A stretch of DNA of 64,000 bases from Methanospirillum lacunae (GTDB taxonomy: Archaea > Halobacteriota > Methanomicrobia > Methanomicrobiales > Methanospirillaceae), in the NCBI RefSeq assembly GCF_003173355.1, contig NZ_QGMY01000008.1, positions 310,001 to 374,000 of the forward strand. The letters run 5' to 3'. This document shows positions 7,313 to 64,000 of this stretch, piece by piece. Below the pieces are notes generated by a model, which was not told the origin of the DNA, searched no databases, and worked only from the letters and a program-made list of their open reading frames with translations. Numbering within the stretch: the stretch's first letter is position 1; each line of letters starts with the position of its first letter. A program made the translations under genes and the position numbers.

Positions 7313-9901
7313 TTATTTTTTTAGGAATTTTTCAGGTTCTTTTTTAAATGCGTCAAGGCATCCTTTACTGCAGAAATAAAAATTTTTGTTCTGGTATGTG
7401 GTTTTGAACTGAGCATTTGCCATCTTTACCTCCATTCCACATACCGGATCAATGGCGGTATCTTCAGATAGTGTCTGTGGATTTTTCATACGGATTGGTG
7501 GGGTGTACTTCCTTAAAAGTAATGATAATGATACTACTGTCACTGATGAGAGTGCCATGGCAAGGGCGCCATACTCTGGTCTGAAGATAATTACTGGGTA
7601 GAATAGGCCCGCTGCGAGAGGTATGAGAATAATATTGTATGCAAATGCCCAGAAGAGATTGAGTCTGATTCGTCCCATAACTTTTCTTGCCAGTTGAATA
7701 GCAGCAACGGCATCGGTTATCTCATCCCTTACAAGGATGATATCTGCACTTTCTATTGCAACATCAGTTCCGGATCCTATTGCAATACCTGTATCTGCTC
7801 TGGTGAGTGCAGGTGCATCATTGATCCCATCCCCGACAAAAGCGACTACTTCTTTCTGCTGCTGAAGCCTGGATACTTCATGTTCTTTCTCGTCAGGAAG
7901 CACATTGGCAATAACACGGTCTATCCCAACCATCTGTCCTACTGCCTGGGCTGTTCGTTGGTTATCACCGGTTACCATCCCTGAAGAGATATGCATCTGT
8001 CTCAGTTCAGCAATAGCAGATGAAGCTGATGGTTTCACTGAGTCGGCTACGGAGATAAGTCCAAGAAGTTGTTGGTCTCTGGATACAAGAATGGTAGTCT
8101 TTCCTTCCTCCTGTCTTTTTATTATCTTATGATTCGCATCTGATTCGACAGGGACACCGGCTTCAATGATGAAATGCTGATTTCCTGCCCTGATTATTCC
8201 TCCGGCGATCTCTCCCATCAGACCCTTCCCGGGTAGATAAGTAAACTGGTTGACATCTACCGGTTCTATTCCTTCTTCAGATGCTTTTGAGATAATTGCT
8301 TCACCGAGAGGATGAGTTGAAAGATGTTCAAGAGCCGCAACATAAGAGAGAAGAAGTGGGCGTGAACCGGTGAATACATCAATGTCGGTTACTACAGGTT
8401 TTCCTTGTGTAAGGGTTCCGGTCTTGTCGAAAAGTACCGTGGTCAGGCGATCTGAAATCTCAAGACTTTCACCATTTCTTATTAGTATTCCAAGCTCAGC
8501 TCCTCTTCCAACTCCAACAGTGATGGCAGTCGGTGTGGCAAGACCTAATGCACAGGGACAGGCGACCACCAAAATTGCGATCAGGGTTTGGAGTGCGAAT
8601 TGAAGCCCTGCATCAGCTACAAAGAACCAGAAGAAAAATGCTCCGATTGCAATTACTAAGACAACCGGGATGAACCATGTGACAGCAGTATCCGCTATCC
8701 GTTGAACGGAAGGTTTTGATCCCTGGGCATCTTCAACTAATCGTATGATCCGCGAGAGCATCGTGTCAGCACCGATCCGTCGTGCCTGAAATGTCAGACT
8801 TCCGGATGTTGCCAGAGTCCCGGCTACGACCTCATCCCCTTGTAATTTTTCAACAGGAAGAGGTTCACCTGTCACCATGGATTCATCAACAAAACTGGAT
8901 CCAGATATTACTGAGCCATCCACCGGGATTCTGTCGCCCGGTCTGATGACCACCATGTCACCCACGATCACATCCTCAATCGGGACTCTGATTTCTTCCT
9001 TATCCCTGATAACTGCAGCAGTATCAGCCTGTAGTCGCACCAAGGACTGAATTGCCGATGAGGTCCTTCCTTTTGCTCTCGTCTCCAGGTACCTCCCGAG
9101 CATGAGGAATGATGTCAGCATGATTGCAGTCTCGTACAGGATATAACTCATATCAAGCACTATGCCAAAAGTTCCAAGCACACTTGCAAGATAAGCAACA
9201 GTTGTACCCATTGCATACATGACATCCATATTCAGAGTCCGGTTTTTCAATGACGTGAAGGCAGCCCTGAATATCGGCATGCCAAGCCAGAAAAACGCTG
9301 GAGTCGCAATTAAAAACTGAAGGTAGATTAGTGGATACATCAGGTCTTTGGGTGCTGCCATTAAAGCCATGAGGATGGCTGATATTGCAAATCCTGCGAT
9401 TACCCGTGTAAGTTTGTCATGGAGGTCTGCCTGAAGTCCATTATCACCTGTCTTGAGGGTCCCTTCCTTATCTGTGCCTAGGTACTGGTATCCAGCCTTT
9501 GTGATAGCGTCCCTCATTTGAAATAGGGTGACAACATAGGGATTATAGGTTACATATGCCCGTTCTGAACCAAGATTTACGGTGGCCGTAATAACTCCAT
9601 CCAGTTTTTTAAGAGCGGTCTCTATTGTCTGTGCACAGATAGCACAGGTCATCCCTCCTATCCGTATGGTGACCTGTTCATTGATTACTCCAAAACCACT
9701 TTTTTCTACTTCTTTGGTTAGTGTTGCGTGGTCTGTAATTGCTGGGTTAAACTCTACAACTGCTTTTCCCGTTCCAAAGTTGACCTGTGCATTGGAAACC
9801 CCATCTGCAGAAGAGAGCCCTTTCTCTAGGTTGATAGCACAGCTGGCACAGTGCATTCCTGAAATTGCCAGTTCTATCTTCTTCTTTTTTTCATCTGCCA
9901 T
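7313..9901 (-). CDS. copA: Copper-exporting P1B-type ATPase with a C-terminal YHS domain
   Basis: This 862-residue membrane pump has two N-terminal heavy-metal-associated domains (GMHCASC near 14-20 and GMTCAIC near 83-89). Eight transmembrane helices follow, with the CPC metal-channel motif ([11 protein letters not shown] near 447), the phosphorylation site DKTGTLT near 493, and the YN and MxxSS signatures of Cu(+) pumps in the last helices. The C-terminus carries a YHS-type metal domain (DPVCGMEV ... [12 protein letters not shown], residues about 815-862), more often found at the N-terminus. It should export Cu(+) or Ag(+) using ATP. The start follows AGGAG. No CopY or CsoR-type repressor is adjacent. 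Confidence 0.95.
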
Positions 9902-57018: not shown

Positions 57019-57144
57019 CGTTTTTGAATCAATTCGGTTGTTTTTTCTGAAATTTTTAGATTTATCTGAATATTATTATCTGGTTTTTTCCGGCGACAGG
57101 TGTCTTATAGATCATTCGCTGATATATACGCGGAAGGAATACAG

Positions 57145-58326
57145 ATGTATCTCATAGGCGAAGCACTCATAGGTGACGGTGCTGAACTGGCTCATATCGA
57201 CCTCCTTATCGGGGATAAGAACGGCCCAGTCGGTACAGCGTTTGCCAACTCACTCTCACAGTTATCAGCAGGACACACCCCTCTCCTCGCGGTTGTCAGG
57301 CCGAACCTGCTCACGAAGCCCGCAACACTGGTTATCCCGAAGGTGACCCTGAAGTCCGGTGCCCAGGTTACCCAGATGTTTGGTCCTGTTCAGGCTGCAG
57401 TCGCCAAGGCGGTTGCAGACTGTGTCGAAGAAGGTGTCTTTGCCGGGCAGGATCTCAATGATCTCGTCATCCTGGCAAGTGCGTTTCTGAGTCCAGAAGC
57501 AAAAGACTACAACAGGATCTACCGGTTTAATTATGGGGCAGTCAAACTTGCATTGAACCGTGCATTTGAGCAGTTCCCTGATGAAAAGACTCTCATTCAT
57601 GAGAAGGACCGTGCAGCTCATGCAGTCATGGGATTCAAGGTTCCAAGGCTTTGGGATCCACCATACCTTCAGGTTGCCCTTGATATTGTCGATCTTGGCA
57701 AGCTGAAATCTGTTCTCTCGGCACTGCCTGAAAATGATCACCTGATCATTGAGGCTGGAACGCCACTCATCAAGAAGTTCGGCCTCAATGTGCTCAATGA
57801 GATTCGGGCCGTCAAGCCGAATTCATTCATTGTTGCAGATATGAAGATTCTTGATACCGGGAACCTTGAGGCAAGGATGGCAGCAGATGCCTCTGCAGAT
57901 GCAGTGGTGATGTCAGGACTTGCTCCTAAAAGCACTATTGAGAAAGCAATTGAGGAAGCCCGTAAGACTGGTATCTACTCAGTCATTGATATGCTCAATG
58001 TTTCAGATCCGGTTGGTCTCATTAAGAGCCTGGCTGTTAAGCCCGATATTGTGGAACTTCACAGGGCAATTGATGCTGAGTCCTCAGCACATGCATGGGG
58101 TAACATCAAGGATATGAAAGCAGCAGCCGGTGGGAAACTTCTGGTAGCAACTGCCGGAGGTATCCGAGTACCGGTTGTTAAGGAAGCACTGAAGTCAGGT
58201 GCAGATATTCTTGTCGTTGGTCGGGCAATTACTGCAAGCAAGGATGTTCACCATGCAGCTGAAGAATTCCTTGAGCAGCTGAACAAGGAAGAGATTGATC
58301 AGTTCAGAATTATGACCGATTTCTAA
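57145..58326 (+). CDS. fae-hps: Bifunctional formaldehyde-activating enzyme / 3-hexulose-6-phosphate synthase
   Basis: The 393-residue fusion has an N-terminal Fae domain (MYLIGEALIGDGAELAHIDLLIGDKNGPVGTAFANSLSQLSAGHTPLLAVVRPN, with catalytic His17) and a C-terminal Hps barrel (from about 165; DMKILDTGN, VVELHRAID-like and VAGGI segments). Fae condenses formaldehyde with tetrahydromethanopterin; Hps links it to ribulose-5-phosphate. In methanogens the fusion mainly runs in reverse to supply ribulose phosphate. The ATG at 57145, not 57100, gives the family start. An AT hairpin follows the stop. Confidence 0.96.
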   Translation: MYLIGEALIGDGAELAHIDLLIGDKNGPVGTAFANSLSQLSAGHTPLLAVVRPNLLTKPATLVIPKVTLKSGAQVTQMFGPVQAAVAKAVADCVEEGVFAGQDLNDLVILASAFLSPEAKDYNRIYRFNYGAVKLALNRAFEQFPDEKTLIHEKDRAAHAVMGFKVPRLWDPPYLQVALDIVDLGKLKSVLSALPENDHLIIEAGTPLIKKFGLNVLNEIRAVKPNSFIVADMKILDTGNLEARMAADASADAVVMSGLAPKSTIEKAIEEARKTGIYSVIDMLNVSDPVGLIKSLAVKPDIVELHRAIDAESSAHAWGNIKDMKAAAGGKLLVATAGGIRVPVVKEALKSGADILVVGRAITASKDVHHAAEEFLEQLNKEEIDQFRIMTDF

Positions 58327-59452: not shown

Positions 59453-60058
59453 ATGAAACCTGATTTACTGTTATTTTTCGATACAGAGACGACCGGGACT
59501 GATCCACGTCTCGCCAGGGCTGTTGAGATTGCCTGGATTGTCTGCACCAGTGACGGGCAGATTGTGAAAGAGGAGACCCATCTTGTCAAACCGAAGGGGT
59601 TCACGATCCCGGATCAGGCGGCTGCGATCCATGGTATCACGACCGAGATAGCAGAAACGGAGGGTCTTGATCTGTCTGTGATTCTGAAGGAACTTCTCGC
59701 TGATGTATCTCGCACCGGTCTTCTTGTCGGTCACAATGTGGCGTATGACCTGGATATTATCGCTCATGAATGCAGTCGTGAGAAGATTGACTCTCTAAAG
59801 TTCAGGGAGAAGCCGAGTTTCTGTACGATGAAGAGTCTGACGAGTTTTTGTAAGATTCCCTTCCCATCCGGTACAGAATTCAAGTATCCTAAACTCGGTG
59901 AGGCATATGAGAAACTGTTAGGTGAGTCTCTGCTTGATGCTCATGATGCATTGATTGATACGGATGCGTGCAAGATGATTTTTTTCAAGGCGATTGAAAT
60001 GGATATTTTCCGGTTTAACGAGTCACCACGTCCGGATGTTGAGGTCCGGATTTGTTAG
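59453..60058 (+). CDS. DnaQ-like 3'-5' exonuclease (DEDDh family)
   Basis: The 201-residue product has the exonuclease I motif FFDTETTGTD (Asp10, Glu12), motif II LLVGHNVAYDLDII and motif III DAHDALIDTDACKMIFF with the catalytic histidine. It resembles stand-alone epsilon-type or RNase T-type nucleases. Archaeal chromosomes carry few of these; the gene sits beside the GC-motif array and a group II intron, so it may belong to the accessory region. Substrate (DNA or RNA) unknown. Confidence 0.85.
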   Translation: MKPDLLLFFDTETTGTDPRLARAVEIAWIVCTSDGQIVKEETHLVKPKGFTIPDQAAAIHGITTEIAETEGLDLSVILKELLADVSRTGLLVGHNVAYDLDIIAHECSREKIDSLKFREKPSFCTMKSLTSFCKIPFPSGTEFKYPKLGEAYEKLLGESLLDAHDALIDTDACKMIFFKAIEMDIFRFNESPRPDVEVRIC

Positions 60059-60360
60059 AATAATTAAAGATCGGGGTTGTGATGGGGGGCCCGATCTGGT
60101 GAAAAAGATGAACGCTGGGGATAGTTCTGTGTTTTGTGTTAGGTTAGATGTGCAGGGGATTTACCCATACTAAAACGTGTCCTAGGTGATTGTAGGACAA
60201 CAGTTCATTAGTGTTTTGTAATTTAAGTGTGTCGAAATGTTTCTGTTAATTAGGTTTGTTAATTTGCGCATAATTTAAGAATAATTTTTTATTGAAAAGA
60301 TATTTAGAGACTTCACAGGGTTAAATATGATCTGGGAGAGACGACTATTGTGAATGTGAT

Positions 60361-61083
60361 CGGGCTCTATTTCATGTACAGGCAGTACATGAAACTGGCC
60401 GGCAAAAGGCGAAAGAGACTAAATGACGCCTTCACCAAAAGGTAAGAAGTCAGGTTTTGGTGGTTTCATTGACATCAAAATGAATAGACATCGAACTTCC
60501 GGTCCATGAGCAGCTCCTAAAGCATCATAATTATCCTGATTACGGAACTTGGAAACCCCAATACGCTCCCTAATGGGTAAGAACTGCGTGAGCAGAACTA
60601 TAAGTGTAGTGGGAATAGGAAACTGCAAGAAGCGAATAGGCCGCCTATAATGGGTGTGGATAAAGGCTCGTTCCCCAACCCGAAAGGGTGCAGACGTGCA
60701 GTTGGCCAATCACGACGAAATTTGAGGTAACTCTATGAATGTGAGAAGTTCAAATACGCATATTAGCGAGGACCTTACTAACAGGGAGTTAGCCAAACAA
60801 TGGAAAAATCTTCCATTAGATGAAGCACGATCCCATGTGAATAGACTCCAGAAAAGAATCCCGAAAGCTGTTAAAGAAGGAAAGTATCGACTAGCGAAAA
60901 GATTACAGTATTTAGTTACTCACTCTTTTTATGCTAAAACTCTTGCAGTCAAAAAAGTAGTTGAGAACACTGGACAAAGGACCACCGGTGTTGATGGAGT
61001 TAAATGGACTCTTCCCCATGAGAAGATGAAAGCAGCCCTCTCACTGACGAACAAAGGGTACAAAGCACAGCCACTCAAGTGTA
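60361..61083 (+). mobile_element. Truncated group II intron (5' RNA part and start of the maturase)
   Basis: Upstream of a maturase-like ORF the DNA has folded-RNA traits: TTCATGTAC/GTACATGAA (60371-60393), AAGGC/GCCTT, and a conserved-looking run of short stems ending CGAAAGGGTGCAGACGTGCAG before the ORF. The exact 5' end is not certain. The maturase stops at about 61080, and no domain V/VI hairpin or exon junction is seen beyond, so the 3' two-thirds are missing. 60059-60360 holds nothing I recognise. Confidence 0.7.
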
Positions 61084-61112
61084 TCGTAATACTTGACTAC
61101 TTGTTGTTCTGA
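60735..61112 (+). pseudogene. Group II intron reverse transcriptase/maturase, N-terminal fragment
   Basis: The first 115 residues match the N-terminal (RT0) region of group II intron proteins (KQWKNLPLDEARSHVNRLQKRIPKAVKEGKYRLAKRLQYLVTHSFYAKTLAVKKVVENTGQRTTGVDGVKW ... NKGYKAQPLK). Homologues continue through the RT palm and thumb, for a total of roughly 400-600 residues. Here the similarity ends at PLK (about 61080) and ten unrelated residues lead to a stop. No YADD active site is present, so it cannot be functional. Confidence 0.82.
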
Positions 61113-61219: not shown

Positions 61220-62410
61220 ATGGATTATCTGGATGAAATTAAAGACGGAGTAGAAAATTTTTTAGTGAAGTGCCTCCAAATCGTAAAAGGAGAAAGTATA
61301 TTAGTAATATATACCCCCTCCTCAAATTATAAAGATACGATAGCATATTCAGGTTCAAAAGGTATTCATCGTTTTTGGAGAGATTGGCAATCTGTTTTTG
61401 AAGATAAAGAATATGATGAACAAATAAAAATATCAATTAGAGAGCATCGAGAAATAATTCACGCTATTTCTGATGTTTCAGATTCATTAAATTGTTCTAT
61501 TTGTCTGTTTCCATTAAATATTAGCAATAAAAATAAGCTCGAAATTTTGAACACTGATGTTGTTGGATTAAAAAATAAACTAAAAACTGCGGATATTATA
61601 ATTGATTTAACATTAATTGGTTTGGATAGTTATTTTATCCCTAATAAATTTAAAATTGGAACACATAACCTCAAATCAATATTTTATAAATCGAATTTAA
61701 GAGGAGCGGATTTACATAATTTAACAACAGATTCTCTAATTGACGGTGCCATGTGTGAAAATTTCAAAGAAATGGATACAAGGATTAAGCAATATTATGA
61801 ACTAATTAAGGGAGTAAAATCTGTAAGAATTACTGACAATCGACAAGAAACTAATCTAACTCTTCCGATAATGCACGGAGATATGCCAACTATGGGAACG
61901 GGAATAATTGGAATGAAAGAATGGCATTTCTTACCTAATGGGATTATTTCATTATGTGTTGATCATGAACAAGTAGAAGGTTCAGTCGTTTTAAATGGAC
62001 CTATTTGGGGAGGTGATTCTTTGAATCATGACCCTGTTAAACTAAGAGTATGTAATGGAGTTGTATCAATAAATTCTGGTGATAATACTCTAGTCAATAC
62101 GATATTAAATCAAGATGGTGGCAAATATTTTGGTGAAATTGTATTTGGGTTTAATAAAAGGGCAGATAAATTAAATGAAAGTCCATATGAATTTTATGTT
62201 GCTGATGGAAGTGTATCCCTAGCCTTTGGAAGAAATGATCATATAGGAGGCAACTGCGGAAAAAATTGTGGTATTGGACATCAATATAATAATAACCACC
62301 AAGTTATTCATTCACACGCTGCAGTTAAAGTAGACAATATAGTTTTAGATATGCAGGATGACAGAAAACTAGAACTAATGAAGGATGGTAAATGGATGGA
62401 GGTAGAATGA
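61220..62410 (+). CDS. M29/NicX-like metallo-enzyme (aminopeptidase T or hydroxypyridine-dioxygenase fold)
   Basis: The 396-residue product is AT-rich in codon use. Its C-terminal half reads like the M29/NicX fold: EGSVVLNGPIWGGDSLNHDPVKLRVCNGVV, KYFGEIVFGFNKRAD, and DGSVSLAFGRNDHIGG followed by VIHSHAAVKVDNIVLDMQ, with Glu and His positions expected of metal ligands. The N-terminal half is divergent. Either a peptidase or an iron-dependent ring-opening dioxygenase is possible; I cannot choose. Its stop overlaps the next gene by ATGA. Confidence 0.6.
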   Translation: MDYLDEIKDGVENFLVKCLQIVKGESILVIYTPSSNYKDTIAYSGSKGIHRFWRDWQSVFEDKEYDEQIKISIREHREIIHAISDVSDSLNCSICLFPLNISNKNKLEILNTDVVGLKNKLKTADIIIDLTLIGLDSYFIPNKFKIGTHNLKSIFYKSNLRGADLHNLTTDSLIDGAMCENFKEMDTRIKQYYELIKGVKSVRITDNRQETNLTLPIMHGDMPTMGTGIIGMKEWHFLPNGIISLCVDHEQVEGSVVLNGPIWGGDSLNHDPVKLRVCNGVVSINSGDNTLVNTILNQDGGKYFGEIVFGFNKRADKLNESPYEFYVADGSVSLAFGRNDHIGGNCGKNCGIGHQYNNNHQVIHSHAAVKVDNIVLDMQDDRKLELMKDGKWMEVE

Positions 62411-62706
62411 GTATGAGGTTGAGTAGTTATCTCGCTGAATCAACTTCCTTGCCTGGAAAAATATTTGAAATATCATTTTTAAACTCATATACATATTATT
62501 GGTTACATCCGTCTGAAATTATGAAAGGATTACTATACGGTATAATACCTCCTTATCTATTTACAGTTTTCATGGATAGTAGACCATTATTTGAAAAATT
62601 AGATGTAATAATATATGGACTTTTAGCGATAATTATATTTTATCATGGAATTTTATTTATTTTAGTATATCGGGATACTAAACAGGGAACAAAAAAGAAT
62701 CAATGA
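62407..62706 (+). CDS. Small two-helix membrane protein of unknown function
   Basis: The 99-residue product has two or three hydrophobic helices (IMKGLLYGIIPPYLFTVFM and LDVIIYGLLAIIIFYHGILFILVY) and a charged tail. The ATG at 62407 follows GGAGGT, overlapping the stop of the upstream gene. It is probably a transport or anchoring partner. No family is recognised. Confidence 0.65.
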   Translation: MSMRLSSYLAESTSLPGKIFEISFLNSYTYYWLHPSEIMKGLLYGIIPPYLFTVFMDSRPLFEKLDVIIYGLLAIIIFYHGILFILVYRDTKQGTKKNQ

Positions 62707-62716
62707 GATGTAAAAA

Positions 62717-64000
62717 ATGAATTCCAATATTGGCCAATCTAAAGCAATATTATTACATGAAAAATATTGTGGGAAAATAGGTATCCATTCTAAAATAAGG
62801 ATGGATGGCAATTTACCGTATGTATATACTCCAGGTATAGCAGATGTAGCACAAAAAATAAATGAAAATCCTGAATATGCATTTAAAAGTACAATTAAGA
62901 AAAATTCAGTGGCTATTGTAAGTGATTGTTCACGTGTGTTGGGGTTAGGACCGATAAAACCAGCAGCAGGACTAGCAGTCATGGAAGGAAAAGCAGTTTT
63001 ATTTAAAAAAATTGCAGACATTGATGCATTCCCTATTTGTTTAGATACTACTGATGAAGATGAAATTGTCAGAACGGTCTGCAATATAGCTCCTGCATTT
63101 GGTGGTATAAATTTAGAGGATATAGCATCAGTAGGTGGGAAAAGTTTTAATGTTGAAGATAAATGTAAAAAATTGATCAAAACCAAAGAAAATCCAATAC
63201 CAATATGTCATGATGATCAACATGGGACTGCAGTGGTTGTTCTAGCAGCGATGAAAAATGCTCTTCGTATAGCGAATAAAGATATTCGAAGCGCTAAATT
63301 TGTTTTTATTGGATGTGGTAGTGCTGGCTATGCGTGTTATGATCTCTTTAAAAAAGCAAAAATGAATCCCAATAATGCAGATGTCTTCCACAAGATTATG
63401 GATAAAAATAATCACGCCGAATTAGTAACTAATATTTATAAAAATCGTGATGATTTTGATCTTTTAAATTGTAAAGAAAAAATTGTCGCTGAAGATTCAG
63501 CGAGAAAGGAAAAAATGACATTGTTAGAGGCTATGAATGACGCCGACGCGGTCATTGGTTTGTCTGAATCTAAGAAGGACGGTAATGTTATATCTGAAGA
63601 AATGATTCAAGTAATGAATCCGGAAACTCCTATCGTTTTTGCCCTAGCAAACCCGTACCCTGAAATTAGTTATCAAAAAGCAAAAAAGGCTGGCGCAGAA
63701 ATAGTTGCAACAGCGCTTTCTGGAACGCCTAATCAAGTCAATGATATTATCAGCATGCCTGCTATTTTTCGAGGAGCTCTAGATGTGGGAGCGACTGAAA
63801 TTTCAACAAATATGTTATTAGCAGCTACAGAAGCATTAAGATCTTCAGTTCCACAAGTAAATGATGTAAATCATATTATCTCATTACCTGGAAGAGTTGA
63901 AGCAGTAGCTGAAATGGCGTATCAAGTTGCAATAGTTGCAAAAAGAGATAACCTAATAAGAAATCATGAATGGGATAAAGATAGGTACAAGGATGAAGTT
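62717..64000 (+). CDS. Malic enzyme (oxaloacetate-decarboxylating), runs off the right edge
   Basis: At least 428 residues are readable from ATG 62717. Malic-enzyme traits are YTPGIADVAQ, SDCSRVLGLG, MEGKAVLFKKIADIDAFPICLDTT, APAFGGINLEDIA, CHDDQHGTAVVVLAAMKNAL and the Rossmann GCGSAGYACYDLF, then FALANPYPEISY. It should convert malate to pyruvate and CO2 with NAD(P). The codon use is AT-rich, like the two genes before it, and it starts 10 nt after the membrane protein. The C-terminus is outside the window; methanogens seldom need this enzyme, so it may be acquired. Confidence 0.92.
   Translation, partial: MNSNIGQSKAILLHEKYCGKIGIHSKIRMDGNLPYVYTPGIADVAQKINENPEYAFKSTIKKNSVAIVSDCSRVLGLGPIKPAAGLAVMEGKAVLFKKIADIDAFPICLDTTDEDEIVRTVCNIAPAFGGINLEDIASVGGKSFNVEDKCKKLIKTKENPIPICHDDQHGTAVVVLAAMKNALRIANKDIRSAKFVFIGCGSAGYACYDLFKKAKMNPNNADVFHKIMDKNNHAELVTNIYKNRDDFDLLNCKEKIVAEDSARKEKMTLLEAMNDADAVIGLSESKKDGNVISEEMIQVMNPETPIVFALANPYPEISYQKAKKAGAEIVATALSGTPNQVNDIISMPAIFRGALDVGATEISTNMLLAATEALRSSVPQVNDVNHIISLPGRVEAVAEMAYQVAIVAKRDNLIRNHEWDKDRYKDEV

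Follow-up and report, generated by a model that had tools for sequence, protein, structure and literature searches.

The active sites of related proteins form the background to the locus described here. The iron ion of NicX is bound by His265, Ser302, His318, and Asp320 (PMC7910607), and the catalytic set of the M29 peptidases is EEHYHD (PMC7023490). The crocagin protein CgnE is derived from the M29 fold, has lost the metal site, and binds a precursor peptide (PMC10070186). Malic enzymes are regarded as a closed, well-understood family, from which the foreign, operon-bound copy found here departs through an altered loop. The operon is located at the end of the analysed stretch of 64,000 nucleotides (the window), which corresponds to positions 310001–374000 of contig C8 (560,696 bases) in a genome of 3.74 Mb (25 contigs, 99.94% complete). 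The features discussed below are:

60337–64845, no strand: lineage-specific segment (blastn against the sister genome G451, locus L046, and its ORFs)
60735–61112, plus strand: fragment of a group II intron reverse transcriptase, truncated to its N-terminal RVT_N domain (PF13655, E 1.8e-27, residues 23–104 of 125)
61220–62410, plus strand: gene 1, a 396-aa protein of the M29/NicX fold with an altered metal site
62252–62317, plus strand: codons of the Cys/His-rich loop of gene 1, NCGKNCGIGHQYNNNHQVIHSH (residues 345–366, from the alignment)
62399–62404, plus strand: Shine-Dalgarno-like sequence GGAGGT for gene 2
62407–62706, plus strand: gene 2, a 99-aa orphan membrane protein
62717–64027, plus strand: gene 3, a 436-aa divergent malic-type enzyme, with its stop 27 nt beyond the window end (64000)
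63710–63745, plus strand: codons of the substrate loop of gene 3, TALSGTPNQVND (residues 332–343, from the motif table)

A closed three-gene operon

Genes 1 and 2 overlap by the four bases ATGA at 62407–62410, which combine the stop of the former with the start of the latter, and a gap of 10 nt separates gene 2 from gene 3. The start of gene 2 at 62407 is the most plausible one, since the ATG is preceded by GGAGGT; an alternative reading from 62392 would give 104 aa. The GC content falls from codon position 1 through 2 to 3 in each of the three genes, which supports real coding. Third-position GC (GC3) is 0.187, 0.182, and 0.206 in genes 1, 2, and 3, respectively, whereas the 71 other ORFs of at least 150 aa in the surrounding 100 kb average 0.425 (SD 0.064). 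Both the tight packing and the far more AT-rich codon use had been pointed out in a sequence-only reading of the window, and both hold. That reading had also placed the remainder of a larger module past the window edge; only the last 27 bases of gene 3 lie there, and the next ORF (64066–64506) is on the opposite strand. Therefore, the operon consists of three genes only and is closed at 61220–64027. The ORF at 64066–64506 (minus strand) is convergent with the operon, has 24% GC, and encodes 146 residues with an N-terminal hydrophobic segment; no family was found for it.

The gene 2 product is, as expected from the earlier reading, a small membrane protein. Hydropathy indicates one clear transmembrane segment at approximately residues 60–91 and a weaker one at approximately residues 36–56. 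The protein has no family match in Pfam, NCBIfam, or PHROG, and no relatives were found in plasmids, in viral contigs, or among the 231 other genomes of the order.

Insertion at a variable locus

The sister genome G451, the closest congener, is collinear with the window until position 60336 and resumes at 64846 in the blastn comparison. Between these flanks, G451 has 2.55 kb of unrelated DNA, including HicA/HicB-like genes. The operon therefore represents a lineage-specific insertion; the locus is variable, and host DNA of the 560-kb contig flanks the operon on either side. None of the 11 congeners has gene 1, nor does any of the 231 other genomes in the order. Together with GC3 and the insertion relative to G451, this absence bears out the proposed horizontal acquisition, which is well shown.

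The low GC content had been attributed to genes 1–3; this is correct for the genes, but the AT-rich block starts inside the truncated reverse-transcriptase fragment at 60735–61112 and runs to approximately 64846. The fragment, which adjoins the block on the left, is broken off at approximately 61080. Within 60419–61112, the part upstream of the fragment resembles the 5' portion of a group II intron. No intron RNA match was obtained in Rfam for this region, and the genome contains no second copy of it apart from a 58-bp piece.

A gene for a Doc/Fic-like toxin (PF02661; Doc-like toxin in PHROG) is located just right of the insertion, at 65667–66038 (L004:5667-6038). The equivalent locus of G451 contains a HicA/HicB-like pair and an AT-rich ORF of 104 aa (L046:5985-6451 and 7458-7772); the HicA/HicB-like call was made by reading the sequences. 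The toxin-antitoxin-like and AT-rich ORFs of G451 at the same position suggest that the locus is an integration hotspot. A gene for a DnaQ-like exonuclease is intact at 59453–60058 and is split by a transposase-like ORF in G451 (L046:8626-10970). A second AT-rich block is found approximately 20 kb past the window, at C8:394539-396943 (L005:4539-6943), with a GC of 0.28 and GC3 of 0.21–0.25; its ORFs of 157 and 644 aa have no Pfam match at E 0.01. A Fae-Hps gene is located at 57100–58326, and we infer that the host is a Methanospirillum-like, strictly anaerobic methanogen.

Folds and active-site residues of the gene 1 and gene 3 proteins

The AlphaFold2 model of the gene 1 protein (pTM 0.73, mean pLDDT 68) is most similar to NicX (PDB: 7cn3/7cup), with a Foldseek E of 3.7e-15 and a VIA Z of 26.0 over 310 residues at 16% identity. 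The M29 aminopeptidases AmpT, PepS, and AmpS follow (Foldseek approximately 1e-12, Z 22–23), then the crocagin proteins CgnE and CgnB (Z 13.2 and 11.7), and unrelated folds appear from Z of approximately 8 down. The predicted structure thus agrees with the M29/NicX fold that had been read from the sequence. No meaningful match was found for gene 1 in the Pfam, NCBIfam, PHROG, or PADLOC families; a hit to DUF3258 (E 0.003) is below the cut-off and was judged to be due to chance. PF02073 (Peptidase_M29) is not matched at threshold by the gene 1 protein or by its genome. Archaeal proteins that do match PF02073 align weakly with gene 1 (E approximately 1e-8, 21–24% identity). No relatives of gene 1 were found in plasmids, phages, or viral contigs. 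Single-protein scans of genome contigs with genes 1 and 3 returned no relative either and, as exact 8-residue peptides are needed, exclude close relatives only. A degenerate pattern of the Cys/His-rich loop had 13 matches in viral contigs, none of which encodes a relative.

The metal-binding positions of the fold are largely replaced in gene 1. In an alignment at 21–24% identity, H265, S302, H318, and D320 of NicX correspond to E306, A335, H364, and H366 of gene 1, with one of the four ligands kept. In this alignment, NicX His265 falls at the position where the AELG motif has its conserved Glu. Approximately two of the six residues of the M29 set EEHYHD are kept (E306 and H364), the Tyr of the set not being mapped with confidence: LPNGII lacks the first Glu, Ser replaces the His, and His replaces the last Asp. 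The Cys/His-rich loop lies in place of these residues; most of it is inserted in comparison with the M29/NicX relatives, and it ends in HSH where the relatives have HxD. Structure prediction, which had been suggested as a check of the metal site, provided a model of the fold, but this region is modelled with low confidence (pLDDT below 50 for residues 340–363). To judge from the aligned residues, neither the canonical M29 di-metal site nor the NicX iron site is kept in gene 1.

The identification of gene 3 as a malic enzyme stands. Its product matches the malic (PF00390; E 1.1e-20, 74.6 bits against a cut-off of 23.1) and Malic_M (PF03949; E 7.1e-18, 65.3 bits against a cut-off of 23.5) domains, and its homology to short malic enzymes is full-length (PDB: 5cee, E 5.9e-79). 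It is about equally close to archaeal and bacterial malic enzymes, mostly at 35–47% identity. The core motifs YTPG (37), EGKA (90), NLEDI (132), HDDQHGT (from 164), and LANP (310) are kept and supply the Tyr, Lys, Glu-Asp, Asp, and Asn motifs of the catalytic core. In contrast, the substrate loop contains ALSGTPNQVND in place of the [TS]GRSDx[PQ]NQxNN found in every other enzyme scored, so that GRSD and the final NN, kept in all the others, are lost. The last Asn of the motif, which is changed to Asp in gene 3, presumably corresponds to Asn467 in the human malic enzyme, a residue that binds the substrate.

In a tree of 37 sequences, the terminal branch of gene 3 is the longest, at 5.66 against a median of 0.18 (approximately 30-fold), and therefore neither its placement nor its donor can be read from the tree. 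Such a long branch could also stem from decay or from the lack of a sister lineage in the tree, with no new function involved. The host also has a native, ordinary malic enzyme (G000:C16:82862-84028) that is 42–45% identical to gene 3, and thus the acquired copy is not needed for malate.

Possible functions and comparison with described systems

The combination of an M29-fold gene and a malic enzyme gene is provisionally unique. No second example was found in whole genomes of the host phylum or in the bacterial collections, which were covered by plasmid and phage searches and by two peptide-pattern scans; these two scans are estimated to miss relatives below approximately 80% identity. The literature search returned no paper on a gene cluster of this kind, and the collections searched thus agree with the initial impression of an unusual pairing. 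On plasmids of Legionella anisa, Legionella adelaidensis, Sulfurovum, Peptoclostridium, and Priestia, the malic enzyme genes examined lie among ordinary genes, with no M29 partner. Co-function of genes 1–3 rests on one genome, relatives of the operon being absent from the data.

Because the active sites of both genes 1 and 3 are altered, these two familiar folds probably serve an undescribed small-molecule or peptide chemistry, different from ordinary peptide or malate breakdown. From the acquisition, the folds, the layout, and the motif changes described above, we infer a substrate class, an order of steps, and a role for gene 2. Our preferred reading, held tentatively and as somewhat short of probable, is that of an acquired, self-contained operon in which gene 3 acts on a substrate other than free malate, gene 1 supplies or presents that substrate, and gene 2 has a role at the membrane. 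Gene 3 would catalyse the NAD(P)-dependent oxidation and decarboxylation of a malate-like 2-hydroxy acid; since its substrate loop is changed, a non-malate 2-hydroxy acid is the most likely substrate. Gene 1 may release it from a precursor as a hydrolase whose Cys/His site has been rebuilt, or present it in the role of a binding protein, and gene 2 may anchor the products of genes 1 and 3 at the membrane or handle the substrate there. A more specific version is rather unlikely: a biosynthetic or degradative module of an anaerobic archaeon, which would combine an M29/NicX fold that has a rebuilt Cys/His metal site or presents a peptide with a malic-type enzyme that has evolved to oxidatively decarboxylate a compound other than malate, perhaps a residue resembling beta-hydroxyaspartate.

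The operon might instead perform ordinary functions, with a divergent but working M29 aminopeptidase or amidase, a second malic enzyme, and a membrane protein engaged in scavenging of C4 acids or peptides. This is unlikely, even though the family-level homology, the M29 fold of gene 1, and the intact core motifs of gene 3 are consistent with it, as only about a third of the M29 catalytic residues are kept, the substrate-loop motif of gene 3 is lost, and its function would be redundant with that of the native malic enzyme. Amide degradation and C4-acid use had been put forward in the sequence-only reading; ordinary forms of either, including ordinary peptide hydrolysis, are doubtful, since genes 1 and 3 each diverge from their family at active-site positions that are otherwise conserved. 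The same reading had offered hydroxypyridine degradation, in which gene 1 would open the pyridine ring and gene 3 would turn the resulting C4 acid into pyruvate. NicX is indeed the closest solved structure to gene 1, and a malic enzyme following a C4 acid is a chemically sensible order. However, no NicD, NicF, or NicE partners are present nearby, and ring cleavage of the NicX type is highly improbable, the least likely of the readings, because it needs O2, whereas the host is apparently a strictly anaerobic methanogen, and three of the four iron ligands (H265, S302, and D320) are missing from gene 1 by alignment.

The position of CgnE and CgnB as the next structural neighbours of gene 1 after NicX and M29 would fit a peptide-natural-product module, in which gene 1 would be a CgnB/CgnE-like peptide binder derived from M29 peptidases and gene 3 would oxidatively decarboxylate a residue of the bound peptide that resembles malate, for instance beta-hydroxyaspartate. 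CgnE binds its precursor peptide without a metal site (PMC10070186), and gene 1 likewise departs from that site. Such a module is nevertheless quite unlikely, as NicX and M29 outscore both crocagin proteins, no plausible precursor-peptide ORF lies beside the operon, and oxygenase (including the dioxygenase CgnC), methyltransferase, and glycosyltransferase partners are absent. A role of the orphan operon in defence or conflict, with gene 2 as a small membrane effector, would suit a locus with a Doc-like toxin at 65667–66038 and HicA/HicB-like small genes at the equivalent site in G451. It is similarly improbable: genes 1–3 have no match in PADLOC-DB at E up to 1, and the malic core is metabolically plausible. 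To our knowledge, no defence system uses a pair of an M29-fold protein and a malic enzyme. Finally, the truncated intron fragment adjoining the operon and the extreme divergence of gene 3 would be expected of decaying, functionless foreign DNA. This is very unlikely, given that all three ORFs are full-length and show coding periodicity, that the operon is tightly spaced and has a Shine-Dalgarno sequence, and that the core malic motifs of gene 3 are intact.

The altered malic loop, next to an M29-fold protein whose metal site is also altered, suggests that both folds have been put to a changed use. It also provides concrete, testable residues in a methanogen, a setting in which little is known of natural-product and peptide-modifying chemistry. 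Gene 1 shares the whole-protein fold with NicX (Z 26), but differs from it in three of the four Fe ligands by alignment, in its Cys/His-rich insertion, and in its methanogen host. It resembles AmpT, AmpS, and PepS (PF02073) in fold, in one bridging Glu and one His, and in weak homology to archaeal PF02073 proteins, whereas it lacks the first Glu, the His, and the Asp of EEHYHD as well as a PF02073 match of its own. With CgnB and CgnE it has in common an M29-derived fold in which the metal site is altered or lost; however, the structural score is lower, and gene 1 is longer and is accompanied neither by a precursor peptide nor by a CgnC partner. Gene 3 is homologous over its full length to the short-form NAD(P) malic enzymes (PF00390 and PF03949; PDB: 5cee, 1ww8), with 41–47% identity and intact core motifs, and differs from them in its ALSGTPNQVND loop, which replaces GRSDxPNQxNN, in additional residues after LEDIAS, in a very long branch, and in its operon context.
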